DNA of 25,453 nucleotides from positions 1 through 25,453 of IMG/VR virus record IMGVR_UViG_3300024433_001888; one strand, 5' to 3'. The stretch is from a virus. A program made the translations under genes and the position numbers. Below the pieces are notes generated by a model. That model ran no database searches and was not told the DNA's origin. It saw only the letters and a list, made by a program, of their open reading frames with translations. Below, in pieces: positions 3,607-24,382 of this stretch (within the stretch, counting starts at the first letter, position 1; the number at the start of each line of letters is the position of its first letter).

Positions 3607-4173
3607 ATGGCAATCGGCAAATGGGCAGACCCGACTTCGGACTGGTTTGATAAAACCCCGTTTCTCACGGCATGCACCAAGTTAGATAATCTTACGCAGA
3701 ATTCTCATGCGCTGGTCGAGCAGGAAACCTTTGTCAATTGGGGCCGCGACCAGATCGATGGATTCTTCACGGTAGGCGCCTGGACGAATCGTGCTCTGTG
3801 GGGGCTCACGTTAGACGGCACCGAACCTTATGATCAGATAGTTTACATGTTCCATCTAGCTGTAACCGAAGAGGGGGCGCCGCTGTTGGCGCCATTGGAT
3901 TGTTGGATGCGGATTTATTGCCCCGAACGCGCAGCGTATTATCCCGACGCTACCGGCTATCAGCCGATTTCATTACCGATTTGGCTCTTGGGGAATCCTT
4001 TTCCTGGATATTTGTATCAGTCGATCAAGATCACGGTTGACCTCACGCCGCCATCGGGGGCATGGGTTGCTGGCAGCCATGAATTCCAATTGCAGGAAAA
4101 GTCCAATGCGCCGATCCAAAGATATTCAAGGCTGCGGAGCATGGTGGGCGTCCTGACGCGAGAGGCAACATGA
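3607..4173 (+). CDS. Tail-associated small protein, paralogue 2 (MxIGxW N-terminus)
   Basis: 188 residues; the ATG directly follows the previous TAA with no gap. It begins MAIGKWADPTSDWF, then a helical segment ending near NLTQNSHAL, then a beta-rich body with many aromatic residues. The N-terminal motif matches its neighbours on both sides, while the bodies have diverged, as expected for duplicated virion decoration or receptor-binding subunits. Its stop overlaps the next start as ATGA at 4170-4173, so the three genes form one translationally coupled set. No enzymatic motif is visible. Confidence 0.75.
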   Translation: MAIGKWADPTSDWFDKTPFLTACTKLDNLTQNSHALVEQETFVNWGRDQIDGFFTVGAWTNRALWGLTLDGTEPYDQIVYMFHLAVTEEGAPLLAPLDCWMRIYCPERAAYYPDATGYQPISLPIWLLGNPFPGYLYQSIKITVDLTPPSGAWVAGSHEFQLQEKSNAPIQRYSRLRSMVGVLTREAT

Positions 4174-4676
4174 CCATAGGCGATTGGTCGGACACCACAG
4201 ATTTCTGGACGAGCACGCCGCCACTGCTGATCTCGGCGATCAAATGTAACACGATGTTTCTAAATAATTGGCGCCTCTACAAAGGGATGGAACGGTTACA
4301 TGAAGCACAGCTCCATGATTATTACGAATACACGAGTATCGTTAACCCATCCTGGTTTTACTCGGTGCGCATTACAGATGCTTGCCCATGGGATCGACTG
4401 ACGATTATGGAGAAAATCAACGTTCCCCACGTCGGCACCGGGAATCTACAGCTGACGGTTGACCACCTCGGCGCTGAAAACATGCGGACATCGACACTCG
4501 ATTGTGTAGACTATTCCGGCTGGGTCTGGTTTGCAGTTATCGATGCCTATGACATCACCGGGTGGGCCGCGGGGAATCATATTATCGAGGTGCATTGGTT
4601 CCCCACGGGCGGCACCTCTTGTGACGATATGCTGGTTAAGTGTCGCCACGCAATGCTGGAAACGAGCCTGACATGA
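4170..4676 (+). CDS. Tail-associated small protein, paralogue 3 (MxIGxW N-terminus)
   Basis: 168 residues. It starts MTIGDWSDTTDFWTS and, like paralogue 2, continues with a helical stretch (SAIKCNTMFLNNW) before a beta-rich domain. It overlaps the upstream gene by four bases and the downstream peptidase gene by four bases (ATGA at both ends). The W-bearing N-terminal motif and the order of elements support common descent with the two preceding genes. It is probably a virion-surface or tail-tip component; the precise role is unknown. Confidence 0.75.
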   Translation: MTIGDWSDTTDFWTSTPPLLISAIKCNTMFLNNWRLYKGMERLHEAQLHDYYEYTSIVNPSWFYSVRITDACPWDRLTIMEKINVPHVGTGNLQLTVDHLGAENMRTSTLDCVDYSGWVWFAVIDAYDITGWAAGNHIIEVHWFPTGGTSCDDMLVKCRHAMLETSLT

Positions 4677-5164
4677 TCGCGCGAATCTTCCAGGGATATT
4701 ACCTTACAACCGATGGCCGCATCACTCATTTCACGCGTTCCGAGCTGTCCTGCCGCGATTCCTGTGGACGAGCCGACATGCAAGAGCCTGCTATCGATGC
4801 GCTCGAAAATGCACGCCTCGAGGCTGGCCAGCCTTTATTCCCGACATCCGGCGTCCGCTGCAGCGCCTGGAATGACCGAAAAGGTGGATCCGCGAATAGT
4901 CCGCATCTTCGCGGCGAGGCGGTGGATCTCTCCTGGGGCCAGGACACATTCGCCCTCTGGCTGCTTCTGCGGAAGCACTTCCGCCGCGTTTGTATGTATA
5001 GCCGTTCTAAGGGCGGGCATTGCCATGCGGATATGTGGATCACCGATCGGGCGATTTGGGATGTGGTTACCAAGGATGGGAATTTTCTAATTGCGGATTT
5101 TTTAGAACGCTATAAGATCGCAATGATTGGTGATGCGATAAACGAAATCTTGGGGGCTACCTGA
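4673..5164 (+). CDS. M15-type metallopeptidase, probable endolysin
   Basis: 163 residues. The ATG at 4673 overlaps the previous stop, so I prefer it over an upstream in-frame ATG at 4640. The zinc signature of the M15 D,D-peptidase / L-Ala-D-Glu peptidase fold is clear: SPHLRGEAVD at residues 76-85 fits SxHxxGxAxD (H78, D85), and GHCHADMW at 115-122 supplies the second histidine group with D120. Known members cleave peptide crosslinks in peptidoglycan. Its length is typical for a single-domain enzyme with no separate wall-binding domain. Small membrane proteins follow at once, as in a phage lysis cassette. A virion-associated peptidase that helps entry is an alternative. Confidence 0.85.
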   Translation: MIARIFQGYYLTTDGRITHFTRSELSCRDSCGRADMQEPAIDALENARLEAGQPLFPTSGVRCSAWNDRKGGSANSPHLRGEAVDLSWGQDTFALWLLLRKHFRRVCMYSRSKGGHCHADMWITDRAIWDVVTKDGNFLIADFLERYKIAMIGDAINEILGAT

Positions 5165-8487: not shown

Positions 8488-8509
8488 GTAAAAGGTAAGT
8501 GCCCCCCTG

Positions 8510-8564
8510 CCCATTGCAGATGGCCAGGAATTTCGCACCGTTCCTGGCCATTTGCAACGGGTTT
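8510..8564 (+). terminator. Strong hairpin terminator at the end of the structural/lysis block
   Basis: An 11-bp perfect stem (8520-8530 with 8541-8551) extends outward to about 21 pairs with one mismatch and one G-U pair, around a ten-base loop. The downstream strand runs straight into TTT and a GGGTTT. It follows the last late-type gene and precedes the first early-type promoter. The U-tract is short, so part of the effect may be RNA processing or 3'-end protection. Confidence 0.65.
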
Positions 8565-8642
8565 AGCCACCACCCCGCACCCCATGCACATTGTAACTCC
8601 TAACCCCTTGTGTTTTCAAAGACTTATAAGCATCGAATTATC

Positions 8643-8671
8643 TTGACTGTGGCACGCTTCTCGCATATACT
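8643..8671 (+). promoter_or_regulatory. Sigma70-type promoter, early module copy 1
   Basis: TTGACT at 8643-8648, a 17-base spacer and TATACT at 8666-8671: one mismatch from consensus in each box, with ideal spacing. The flanks, from TCGAATT (8633) to the ribosome site AAGGAGGG before the ATG at 8702, are repeated almost unchanged at 10088-10164. It probably drives the early gene run beginning at 8702. Confidence 0.8.
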
Positions 8672-8701
8672 CGTGAGTGAACTTGAGAGAAGGAGGGCAG
8701 G

Positions 8702-8989
8702 ATGGAAAAGCAGACGACGGCGGCAAAGGGAACGAAGAGGGCGGCGAGAACCTCCAGGATCCGCATCGGGAACCTGATTGAGTATCACCTGCCTGGGCGG
8801 CACAGCGAACGCTTGGTAGGCGCGATTGAAGAGATCGAGATCGCATACCCGGTAAAGGGCGGCGAGGGCTACGGCCACAAAAAGGTACACAGCACCACGC
8901 AGCGGATACACGATGTATTGATCACGGTTAAGACCGGCGGCGAGAGCCTCTGGATTTCGCCTCGCCACATTGTCAAGGTCATAGGATAG
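8702..8989 (+). CDS. Hypothetical early protein with basic N-terminus
   Basis: 95 residues; AAGGAGGG ends about seven bases before the ATG. The first 20 residues are lysine/arginine/threonine rich (TAAKGTKRAARTSRIR), suggesting nucleic-acid contact or disorder. The rest is predicted beta-rich (IEEIEIAYPVKGG, VLITVKTGGESLWIS, IVKVIG), like a small SH3-like or Tudor-like barrel. It is the first gene after the 8643 promoter, so probably among the first expressed. No family was recognised. Confidence 0.7.
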   Translation: MEKQTTAAKGTKRAARTSRIRIGNLIEYHLPGRHSERLVGAIEEIEIAYPVKGGEGYGHKKVHSTTQRIHDVLITVKTGGESLWISPRHIVKVIG

Positions 8990-8998
8990 GGGGACGCG

Positions 8999-9271
8999 AT
9001 GCGTTGCAAGGTATGCAAGGGAACGGGCAAACAGACGATCGAGGTCTGCGGAGCAGAGACCGGCAAGTTCGAGATGGATTGTTTCTGGTGCGAAGGGACT
9101 GGCGAAATGACCCCGCGCCAAAAGCGCACCTGGGACTTCGCGCGTAACTCATGGTGCAGATGCGGCAACCCTTCCGGCGAGAGCAAGTTTTATGATGACG
9201 GAAAGCACCCGACGACTAAGACGCACCATTATCGGTGTGTTGATTGCGGCAAAATAACACAGATAGGATAG
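8999..9271 (+). CDS. Zinc-finger protein with DnaJ-type CxxCxGxG repeats
   Basis: 90 residues. Two CxxCxGxG elements, CKVCKGTG near the N-terminus and CFWCEGTG at about residue 31, form one DnaJ-like zinc-binding site. A second ribbon follows: CRCG near residue 53 and CVDCG near 83, with a histidine-rich turn (TKTHHYRC) between. The protein is probably a compact two-zinc nucleic-acid or protein-binding factor. It sits ten bases after the preceding gene in the same early run, with GGGGGACG just before its ATG. No specific phage family was recognised. Confidence 0.75.
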   Translation: MRCKVCKGTGKQTIEVCGAETGKFEMDCFWCEGTGEMTPRQKRTWDFARNSWCRCGNPSGESKFYDDGKHPTTKTHHYRCVDCGKITQIG

Positions 9272-9283
9272 GCGGCAAATGAG

Positions 9284-9565
9284 ATGACGACCTATCAGAA
9301 ACCACGCACGCCAGAGGAGGAGAGGATCAAGAAAGAGATCCTCGCCTACCTGGTAGAGACGAATCGCTGGTGCAGCATCATTGAAATCACTGGCGAGTGG
9401 GGACGGCCATGGAATAGGAAGCGCTACAACACGGACGAGCAACCGATGACAAAGGATTGGTGCAACGACCTGCTCGGCGACCTGATGGCCGACCACCTGG
9501 TCGAGGCCAGTGACATCAGCGGCGAGTGGGATCGATTCAAAGCGGCGCCAGGGAGTACAAAATGA
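9284..9565 (+). CDS. Hypothetical early protein, possible winged-helix
   Basis: 93 residues. The start is charged and helical (PEEERIKKEILAYLVETN), followed by a short turn and helices (TKDWCNDLLGDLMADHLVEA) ending in a possible wing (SDISGEWDRFKAAPG). The order resembles a small winged-helix domain in which a C-terminal helix reads DNA, but similarity is weak. Its stop overlaps the next gene as ATGA (9562-9565). The candidate ribosome site AGGCGG lies about eight bases before the ATG at 9284. Confidence 0.65.
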   Translation: MTTYQKPRTPEEERIKKEILAYLVETNRWCSIIEITGEWGRPWNRKRYNTDEQPMTKDWCNDLLGDLMADHLVEASDISGEWDRFKAAPGSTK

Positions 9566-9720
9566 AGATGCAGAAGACAAGGGCCGCGATGCTGCGGTGC
9601 GCCCATTGCGGCAAGTACGATACCAGCACCCGGGATGCGAAGGGGCAACCGCAATGTGGAGTCTGTAAGGCGCGAGCCGGACGAGAGCGAGCGGCGAATC
9701 GGTGGAAGGCGGGAGCATGA
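9562..9720 (+). CDS. Small zinc-ribbon protein
   Basis: 52 residues from the ATG at 9562, which overlaps the previous stop; an in-frame upstream start at 9526 lies within that gene. CAHCGKYD and CGVCKARAG supply a four-cysteine treble-clef or ribbon site (cysteines about 13, 16, 44 and 47 counted from the preferred start). A strongly basic C-terminus (RAGRERAANRWKAG) suggests nucleic-acid binding. Arginine-rich single-ribbon proteins like this are common in phage early regions; the function is unknown. Confidence 0.65.
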   Translation: MKMQKTRAAMLRCAHCGKYDTSTRDAKGQPQCGVCKARAGRERAANRWKAGA

Positions 9721-10142
9721 AATCCCCATTTGCCGCCAGTGCCGTGGCCGCAATGGCCTGGGCCTATGACCCTCGGGGGCTATCGATCGCGCGACACGAG
9801 GGCTGTGTGCCCCTCGGATTCCGGCGAACCCACGCCAATGGCGGGATCCCCGGGCCTTGCAGGTTGCATAAAGCCACGGGGCGAGCCTTAGATGTCTCTA
9901 TGAATCAAAGGGTTACGGGGCTGCGCGGGCTGCCTGTTCTAAGTGCCAAAGGAATCAAAGGGTTACGGCGTTGCGATCTGCCGGCGAATCGGGCAATCTG
10001 CGCTGCCCGAATTGCCCCGGGATTCGGGCGCTGGGGATCCTCGTTAGAAGTGCCGATAAATCAAAGCCTTAGGCCGGAAAATAAATGTCGAATTGTCTTG
10101 ACTGCTGGCATGGTACCTGCTACACTGGTGGGTAGAACTTGA
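9717..10142 (+). CDS. Doubtful open frame (141 codons), possibly non-coding
   Basis: The ATG at 9717 overlaps the previous stop as ATGA, the arrangement used by true genes here, and the frame runs 141 codons. Against it: the protein is arginine/glycine/alanine/proline rich with no fold-like pattern. A 17-base direct repeat with a 50-base period falls in two different frames within it. A near-consensus promoter (10098-10126) lies inside its 3' end. I read the region mainly as regulatory DNA with repeats; a decayed or very small gene at its 5' end is possible. Confidence 0.25.
   Translation: MKSPFAASAVAAMAWAYDPRGLSIARHEGCVPLGFRRTHANGGIPGPCRLHKATGRALDVSMNQRVTGLRGLPVLSAKGIKGLRRCDLPANRAICAARIAPGFGRWGSSLEVPINQSLRPENKCRIVLTAGMVPATLVGRT
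9902..10071. repeat. Direct repeats with TCAAAGNNTTA core upstream of an early promoter
   Basis: The 17-base unit GAATCAAAGGGTTACGG occurs at 9902-9918 and exactly 50 bases later at 9952-9968. A diverged third unit, ATCAAAGCCTTAGG, begins at 10060. The shared core TCAAAGNNTTA also occurs at 8616-8626, just upstream of the other early promoter. An AAGTGCC element precedes the second and third units. The spacing relative to both promoters suggests operator or activator sites for a phage regulator. Confidence 0.55.
10098..10126 (+). promoter_or_regulatory. Sigma70-type promoter, early module copy 2
   Basis: TTGACT at 10098-10103, a 17-base spacer and TACACT at 10121-10126. The promoter, its upstream TCGAATT and the downstream GAACTTGAGA plus AAGGAGGG leader match the copy at 8633-8704, with differences mostly in the spacer. 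It reads into the gene at 10162 and the long non-coding stretch beyond it. Confidence 0.78.
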
Positions 10143-10161: not shown

Positions 10162-10413
10162 ATGAAGACCAGAACCGAACACACGAGCCGAGAAGAGAAG
10201 AGGGCGGAGAACCTGGCCAAGGCGCAGGCGGCTTATAAAGAGAAGCGCGCCGCGATCACCGACCGGATTCTTCGGATCCAGAGATTGGTAGCAAAGCATG
10301 GGCCGACCGATGATGACCAGCTGTTTTGGGGATTCGTGGGCGACCTCGAGCACGTAGATGGGCGGCTTAAGGATATCGAAGATTTCCTGAGCGGATACCC
10401 TGACGAAAAATAA
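10162..10413 (+). CDS. Small helical/coiled-coil early protein
   Basis: 83 residues; AAGGAGGG at 10147-10154 lies upstream of the ATG. The first 60 residues are nearly all helix-forming and highly charged (SREEKRAENLAKAQAAYKEK, ITDRILRIQRLVAKH), and the remainder is a second amphipathic helix (DLEHVDGRLKDIEDFLSG). It looks like a helical hairpin or coiled-coil adaptor, as seen in small phage host-takeover proteins. It is the first gene after the second early promoter. No family was recognised. Confidence 0.7.
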   Translation: MKTRTEHTSREEKRAENLAKAQAAYKEKRAAITDRILRIQRLVAKHGPTDDDQLFWGFVGDLEHVDGRLKDIEDFLSGYPDEK

Positions 10414-10855
10414 ACGGAACCCTTACAACCGAATAGCCTGAAAGGATGTAGCACACACGGACAGAGGCCGATCGGCAAGACCTCGCGGAGCAAAAGGCGG
10501 CTCCACAACGGCATAGCAGGCGAGGGGAAGCCCAGCCGGATAAACTGCGGAGCCGATCGGGGAAGACAATAAGAGCAGGTAGAAGCGAACCTGGATCCGA
10601 AACCAGACCGGAGAGAGCGCCTGGTAGAAGATAGGACTGACAACCCGAATGAATCGCTAAGAAGGGGTACGAAGATCGCCTCGCGCGGCGCCTCATAACC
10701 CGGGATCGAAAGCCCGGGAAGCCCAGCAGCGCCTGCTCGGTGTTAAATCACGGGAGCGGCCAGCGGTGGGAATAGAACATTCGATGTTGTATAGCAAACA
10801 GGATTTGAACCACGAAGGAGGATCCACAGAATTTCAACCAGTAACTGGAGGATAG
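10414..10855 (+). ncRNA. Candidate large structured RNA in a 440-base gene-free stretch
   Basis: No plus-strand gene is visible here, and the minus-strand frames run against every other gene. Nested helices are visible: 10468-10476 with 10552-10560 (9 bp), enclosing 10481-10486 with 10520-10525 (6 bp), enclosing 10487-10491 with 10500-10504 (5 bp). Separate hairpins follow at 10699-10718 (6 bp CCCGGG arms), 10725-10737 (5 bp, 3-base loop) and 10776-10788 (5 bp, TCG loop). The 12-mer GGGAAGCCCAGC occurs twice (10525, 10716). It lies downstream of promoter copy 2. Size and setting recall the large ornate phage RNAs (ROOL, GOLLD), but I see no sequence match to them. Confidence 0.45.
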
Positions 10856-10859
10856 GCAA

Positions 10860-11225
10860 ATGGCAGAGACAAACTGCACAAAGTGCAACCGACCGATTGC
10901 CGGATTCACAGTTTACGATGACCACATGAATCCTTATCATCCCGCCTGTACGCCTGCGGAGTTCAAAGCCCAGGCGAAGGCTGAGCGTAAAGAGTTCAAG
11001 GATAGCCACATCGGCGTCCGGAAGCAGCGGAAGATCGATGCACTCTGGAATCGCCGGGCACGCCTGGTCAAGAAGCGGCTTGCGCTTCTCCGCGATATGG
11101 AAGGCGTGATGGAGCAGGTCGGGAAGGTCGAAGCCGACCTGAAGACGACCGATCCCGATTGGGAGGCCAAACTGGCTGATCTGCAGACCGTAGGGAGCGA
11201 GCCGGAAGAGGAGGCCGCGGAATAA
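10860..11225 (+). CDS. Zinc-knuckle plus coiled-coil protein
   Basis: 121 residues; GGAGGAT lies about eight bases before the ATG. The N-terminus has a LIM-like half-site, CTKCNRPI (about 6-9), with HPAC at about 27-30 as the likely remaining ligands. Residues 35-100 are a long charged helix or coiled coil (EFKAQAKAERKEFKD, RLVKKRLALLRDMEGVMEQ), and the tail is acidic (SEPEEEAAE). It may be an adaptor that binds a host factor. It immediately follows the structured stretch 10414-10855, so its translation may be controlled by that RNA. No family was recognised. Confidence 0.7.
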   Translation: MAETNCTKCNRPIAGFTVYDDHMNPYHPACTPAEFKAQAKAERKEFKDSHIGVRKQRKIDALWNRRARLVKKRLALLRDMEGVMEQVGKVEADLKTTDPDWEAKLADLQTVGSEPEEEAAE

Positions 11226-11243
11226 TAACGAGGCCGAGCGGTG

Positions 11244-11287
11244 GGGGCGGCGCCGGGGGATCGTGGACTAGGCACTGGCGCCGCCTC
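11244..11287 (+). other. Long GC-rich inverted repeat in the gap 11226-11323
   Basis: A perfect 9-bp inverted repeat (11246-11254 with 11277-11285) is extended to 11 pairs by one G-U and one G-C pair, around a 22-base loop. It sits alone between two early genes and is followed by no U-tract, so a processing site or local RNA structure is more likely than a terminator. Confidence 0.5.
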
Positions 11288-11323
11288 GCCGGTTGATTAG
11301 AAGCCGAACAAAACGAGGTGGAA

Positions 11324-23698: not shown

Positions 23699-23728
23699 TC
23701 TATATCACAAAGGGAGGAGGTGAGAACA

Positions 23729-24382
23729 ATGAGACGATGGTTACTTTTGATGTTGGGGATACTGATCGCCAGTACGTGCTTTGCTGGGGATCCGCATCAG
23801 CCGAACTGCTATCTCGAATGCGTGATCGGCTACAACACCCTGTATTGTCTGTGCGGCGATACTGGCGACGAGCAATGCGGCATCACCGTGTATGTCCGCG
23901 ACGAGGCGGGCAGCCCGTGTGAAGGCGTACAGGTTGAGGTGTCCCCGATGAAGATGTATCCGTACAACCCGTCTGAACAGGTCTATACGATGTGTGAGTT
24001 TGAAACCGGCGCGAACATCGGTTACACCAATGCCGATGGGGTGTGGGAATTCGCGCCGACACATATCGGGGGATCTGAGGTGGGGAACATGGCATGGCGC
24101 TGCTGGGTCGGCAGCCCATGGCAATTCTATATCGATGGCGGGGGGAATGCGATTAAAAGCGTGGACTTAGTTATTACCCCGAACACGCTGCCCCGTGACC
24201 AGGCCGTTGACCTGGCGGATTTCGGATACTTCGCGCAGTACTATTTGGGCGGGCCGGAGCCGCCTTATGTCTACAACCCGCTTTGTGATTTCAATTCGGA
24301 CATGGAGGTAGACTTGTCCGACTTTGGGATCTTCGCCAGCCATTATTTCCATGGATGTACGGGGGCTGGGATCGGGCGATGA
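23729..24382 (+). CDS. Secreted protein with beta domain and C-terminal type I dockerin
   Basis: 217 residues from the ATG at 23729, after GGGAGGAGGTGAG. Residues 1-19 are a Sec signal (WLLLMLGILIAS, cleavage near CFA-G). A cysteine-rich part and a CnaB/immunoglobulin-like beta domain follow (ITVYVRDEAGSPCEGVQVEV at 52-71, NADGVWEF at 101-108). Residues 159-206 hold two dockerin-type calcium motifs: DLADFGYFAQYYLG and DFNSDMEVDLSDFGIFASHY, with the Asp/Asn spacing of EF-hand-like loops. Dockerins bind cohesins on surface or extracellular complexes. In a phage the gene is probably accessory (host-surface or anti-competitor). Confidence 0.72.
   Translation: MRRWLLLMLGILIASTCFAGDPHQPNCYLECVIGYNTLYCLCGDTGDEQCGITVYVRDEAGSPCEGVQVEVSPMKMYPYNPSEQVYTMCEFETGANIGYTNADGVWEFAPTHIGGSEVGNMAWRCWVGSPWQFYIDGGGNAIKSVDLVITPNTLPRDQAVDLADFGYFAQYYLGGPEPPYVYNPLCDFNSDMEVDLSDFGIFASHYFHGCTGAGIGR

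Follow-up and report, generated by a model that had tools for sequence, protein, structure and literature searches.

A 446-base non-coding gap in a virus genome with hints of conserved RNA hairpins

Does a long stretch between two small genes of a virus, free of genes on the plus strand, hold a structured RNA, and if so, of what kind? The preliminary description of this locus had raised the possibility of a large ornate phage RNA at 10414–10855. The window, i.e., the whole stretch of DNA that was analysed (25,453 nt; IMG/VR record IMGVR_UViG_3300024433_001888), was surveyed via its list of open reading frames (ORFs), according to which the upstream plus-strand ORF stops at 10413, the downstream one begins at 10860, and the interval 10414–10859 is free of plus-strand ORFs of at least 40 codons. 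The gap of 446 bases and its flanking ORFs are as follows:

10414–10859, plus strand: candidate structured RNA, an intercistronic non-coding stretch with no plus ORF, the lowest codon scores and one homologue
10162–10413, plus strand: 83-codon ORF upstream of the gap, a weak relative of phrog_14596 (a PHROG of unknown function)
10860–11225, plus strand: 121-codon ORF downstream of the gap, with one CxxC motif near its start and no family

A codon model trained on the clear genes of the window gave the gap scores of −0.16 to −0.28, negative in all six frames, vs +0.14 and +0.18 for the two neighbouring ORFs in frame. When the whole window was scanned, the gap was the longest run without coding signal and had the lowest coding signal in every frame, and its six-frame translations had no PHROG matches. 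The ORF list, codon scores, and window scan thus bear out that the plus strand is free of genes here; a conserved protein frame, which had been named as evidence against an RNA, was absent according to codon scores and PHROG matches, and the lack of a coding frame is a generic trait of structured RNAs. A frameshifted coding sequence and a recently decayed gene were ruled out on the basis of the negative codon scores and the missing PHROG matches. As the coding signal is lowest in every frame and no protein-family remnant is left, the gap is not a recent gene ruin. The same evidence argues against an unconstrained, functionless spacer or relic left behind by an ancient deletion or the decay of a gene, as does the general experience that 446 bases without use are rarely retained in phage genomes. 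The gap is purine-rich (A 32%, T 12%), and T is as low as this in only 0.3% of 446-nt windows.

A near-consensus promoter had also been described upstream:

10098–10126, plus strand: sigma-70-like promoter TTGACT-17-TACACT, 9/12 in the consensus scan, with TG before the −10 element and kept in the relative

The site exists but is not the gap's own promoter. It is followed by a ribosome-site leader that contains AAAGGAGG, after which the 83-codon ORF opens with ATG at 10162; the promoter itself is located about 290 bases ahead of the gap. Since the promoter stands before the 83-codon ORF, the gap is probably intercistronic and not separately promoted. No promoter-like site was found immediately before the gap in the consensus scan, nor was a plus-strand terminator of the gap found. 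A ribosome site (GGAGG) is present shortly upstream of the 121-codon ORF, which has a 92% identical copy in the relative. A sister promoter (TTGACT-17-TATACT) is located at 8643–8671 and has a similar leader, both leaders following the pattern GAACTTGAGA..AAGGAGGG..CAGGATG; the two are probably early-type phage promoters.

Read from this arrangement, the gap would most simply be transcribed as the second part of an operon. Our preferred, if tentative, explanation is that it represents a structured, cis-acting intercistronic RNA of an early-type phage operon, which we favour over an idle spacer and, in third place, over a free-standing RNA. A polycistronic phage mRNA would start at the promoter at 10098–10126, cross the 83-codon ORF, and extend through the gap to the 121-codon ORF and the genes that follow. 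The gap would then be an untranslated, locally structured segment of this mRNA, whose hairpins would most likely act in cis on the operon, with mRNA processing or stability, polymerase passage, and translation control of the 121-codon gene as possible roles.

The helices listed in the preliminary description, by which the stretch was said to be packed, do exist; however, the density of folding does not exceed chance. The minimum free energy (MFE) of the plus strand was −135.5 kcal/mol vs −131.2 on average for shuffles (z −0.9), and 19 of 100 shuffles folded as well as the gap. Local windows of 120 nt had a mean z of −0.61 in the gap vs −0.31 over the whole window. The generic expectation that an RNA has an energy below that of shuffled controls is hence not borne out, and this ordinary energy counts for a spacer and against the preferred cis-acting RNA. 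The predicted pairings include competing long-range helices. Among predicted unpaired positions, A made up 52% in the gap vs 53% in shuffles; richness in unpaired A is not evidence because shuffles give the same level, and A-rich loops were dropped. The repeated and paired elements of the 5′ half and the repeat partner further downstream are:

10468–10476, plus strand: 5′ arm of a 9-bp helix, inverted repeat, invariant in both copies
10552–10560, plus strand: 3′ arm of the 9-bp helix, inverted repeat, invariant in both copies
10525–10536, plus strand: 12-mer GGGAAGCCCAGC, copy 1 of a repeat, kept in the relative
10716–10727, plus strand: 12-mer GGGAAGCCCAGC, copy 2, overlapping the 3′ arm of hairpin b (see below), kept in the relative
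10577–10592, plus strand: small hairpin AGGT-AGAAGCGA-ACCT, in both MFE folds, with four invariant pairs

Of the three-level nested helix that had been proposed (9, 6, and 5 bp), the 9-bp inverted repeat is present but lacks comparative support, both copies having the same sequence there. Its pairing probability is only 0.58 in the window and, in the relative, 0.16, and it is one among several competing pairings. The 12-base repeat was found as described, with a spacing of 191 bases between its copies at 10525 and 10716. About 0.02 pairs of this length are expected by chance, as estimated from base composition, for which the repeat is mildly unusual.

Searches against Rfam at gathering scores returned no match in the whole window and none across the relative's contig, and at E ≤ 10 neither the gap nor the relative's copy matched ROOL, GOLLD, OLE, or any other relevant family. 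As no Rfam match was obtained even at this threshold, the gap cannot be recognised as a ROOL, GOLLD, or OLE RNA, and the comparison with covariance models of phage RNA families suggested earlier came back empty. ROOL and GOLLD are ornate RNAs of phages and prophages, often located near tRNA islands, and many GOLLD members exceed 800 nt (PMC12286853). The gap resembles them in being long, non-coding, located in a phage genome, and without assigned function; it differs in its length of 446 nt and in having no Rfam match, no tRNA gene in the window, and no deep covariation. A type III toxin-antitoxin RNA was ruled out, as there are no tandem repeats and no toxin-like neighbour.

A new class of phage RNA that stands alone and acts in trans, released by processing of the operon transcript or started at a phage promoter that went unrecognised, and folded into a compact multi-helix form, would fit the purine-rich, non-coding 446 nt, the competing long-range helices, the 12-mer repeat kept in both copies, and the three hairpins described below. 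We nevertheless consider it unlikely, given the ordinary energy, the shuffle-like level of unpaired A, the lack of an own promoter or plus-strand terminator, and the absence of Rfam matches and window tRNAs. With only one close homologue in addition, a large ornate RNA finds no support.

The sole homologue found is located on IMGVR_UViG_3300031566_000037, a virus contig of 56,758 bases, whose gene set includes portal, terminase, and head protein; the relative is therefore a tailed phage. Its copy of the gap is 95% identical and of equal length, with 28 differences and no indel, and lies at the same position between the same flanking ORFs. Blastn of the gap against phages and plasmids produced only short matches covering less than 10% of the query. 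In exact-pattern scans of viral contigs, all matches besides the known relative were in coding frames, and a pattern scan of genome contigs gave four matches, none of them gap-like beyond the pattern. When 392 Planctomycetota genomes were searched by DNA, the eight best matches were all inside long open frames. Searches with the neighbouring proteins led to the same relative, to near-identical fragments not covering the gap, or to distant phages.

The first 185 bases of the gap (10414–10598) are identical in the relative. This was rejected as proof of constraint, because comparable runs of identity (270 and 176) occur elsewhere, and the identical start may reflect patchy divergence. The substitution rate of the gap was 4.2% up to 10818, well under the 12.2% at which four-fold sites differed over all genes; in the three nearest genes, four-fold sites differed at 5.5% (7/127). 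As the rate of the gap about equals the local four-fold rate, purifying selection on it is not demonstrated, which weakens the preferred cis-acting RNA. It also fits the functionless spacer, for which the patchy divergence and the restriction of the known homologue to one close relative likewise speak, so that this explanation ranks second and is quite possible.

A consensus structure is not derivable from a single close homologue. Three hairpins in the 3′ half of the gap nevertheless keep their pairing through substitutions:

10602–10625 (arms 10602–10606 and 10621–10625), plus strand: hairpin a, changed from A-U to G-C at 10602/10625
10699–10718, plus strand: hairpin b, CCCGGG-AUCGAAAG-CCCGGG, with two one-sided changes, pairing being kept as U-G and G-U
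10772–10792, plus strand: hairpin c, AUAgAACAU-UCG-AUGUUgUAU, changed from A-U to G-C at 10779/10785

Hairpin a is extended to an 8-bp helix in the relative by gained pairs, as read from the sequence; its pair probability is 1.0 in the relative and 0.07 in the window, the latter counting against the cis-acting RNA. Hairpin b retains its six pairs via C-G to U-G and G-C to G-U (pair probability 0.998 in the window and 0.51 in the relative), and the corresponding values of hairpin c are 0.74 and 0.81. None of the three is the nested 9/6/5-bp helix of the preliminary description; the check for compensatory changes proposed there thus leaned partly towards an RNA, through pairing-preserving changes in one homologue, while the 9-bp level of the nested helix is invariant.

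A test based on random placement of the compensatory changes (P about 0.001 or less) was too generous because substitutions cluster, and was discarded in favour of an estimate from the genome background. For this, hairpins were counted that had at least 5 pairs, a loop of at most 14, all pairs kept, and one pair changed on both sides. Applied to all 18.7 kb of aligned sequence, the rule was matched by six plus-strand sites outside the gap (about 18.3 kb), so that about 0.15 sites were expected in the gap and two were seen; the Poisson P of about 0.01 is suggestive only, because the rule was chosen after the hairpins were seen. A column-shuffle control gave 139/500, which, with only two sequences, is not decisive and is a point against the cis-acting RNA.

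The gap is hence non-coding, has kept its place and length in one relative, and carries three hairpins with pairing-preserving changes. The two full compensations (10602/10625 and 10779/10785) and the two wobble changes argue against an idle spacer and, together with the missing coding signal, the same position, length, and flanks in the relative, and the lack of an own promoter, for the cis-acting RNA. The comparison with the sole relative hints that some of the hairpins are kept by selection, and the sequences are suggestive of RNA structure in the 3′ half of a real non-coding gap. A large structured RNA of about 400–450 nt that belongs to a new class, made by an uncultured group of tailed phages from an early operon and with its first covarying hairpins in the 3′ half, is improbable; a new phage RNA of small size is possible.

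Strand preference differed among the hairpins. On the minus strand, hairpin a keeps seven pairs, i.e., at least as well as on the plus strand, and thus slightly prefers minus; hairpin b would acquire two A-C mismatches and prefers plus; hairpin c is neutral. An RNA or gene on the minus strand would be in line with hairpin a, with two minus-strand ORFs (109 and 136 aa) that overlap the gap, and with one minus 120-nt window of z −3.67. We regard it as very unlikely, since the minus frames are negative in codon scores and without family match, the flanking genes run on the plus strand, hairpin b would carry the two mismatches, and the minus-strand fold of the whole gap has a z of only −1.15.

Put-like antitermination RNAs lower termination in an operon by acting on the polymerase, and put RNA, at about 70 nt, is much shorter than the gap. 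The put RNA of HK022 is a cis-acting phage antitermination RNA (PMC9378689). A structured cis RNA of an early phage transcript is what the gap would share with it, as a lead on how it may work only, since the gap is far longer and no sequence or structural match to put was found. Ordinary intercistronic mRNA hairpins are similar in that the gap likewise has small hairpins between genes predicted to be co-transcribed, whereas its 446 nt are unusually long for this gene-dense genome. If real, the element would join the unassigned structured RNAs of phage operons, few of which are understood, and its exact hairpins are given here. If it is mere spacer, it calls for caution, since the eye-catching helices were not beyond chance and the only signal for structure came from comparison with the relative.

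Further features were observed around the locus. Behind the 121-codon ORF, the following intercistronic gap contains a GC-rich hairpin (GGCGGCGCC..GGCGCCGCC, 11236–11290). Upstream of the second promoter (10098–10126), AATCAAAGSSTTASG boxes are repeated at 9903, 9953, and 10059, and a degenerate TTTTCAAAGACTTATAAG is located at 8615, ahead of the first promoter (8643–8671); these boxes are possible operator or activator sites. Just ahead of the first promoter, a long inverted repeat (TGGCCAGGAA..TTCCTGGCCA, 8508–8562; z about −4.7) is possibly an insulating terminator. A 1.3-kb block with several small ORFs (window 8646–9969) is missing from the relative, whose junction at this point falls within promoter-region sequences. 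On the relative's contig, a sulfatase-like gene (PF00884, E 1.5e-18; 3878–4894) adjoins the terminase gene. The protein encoded at 23720–24382 of the window weakly resembles a GC-type dockerin at its C-terminus (22.2 bits; cut-off 29), which may serve as a lead towards a Planctomycetota host.
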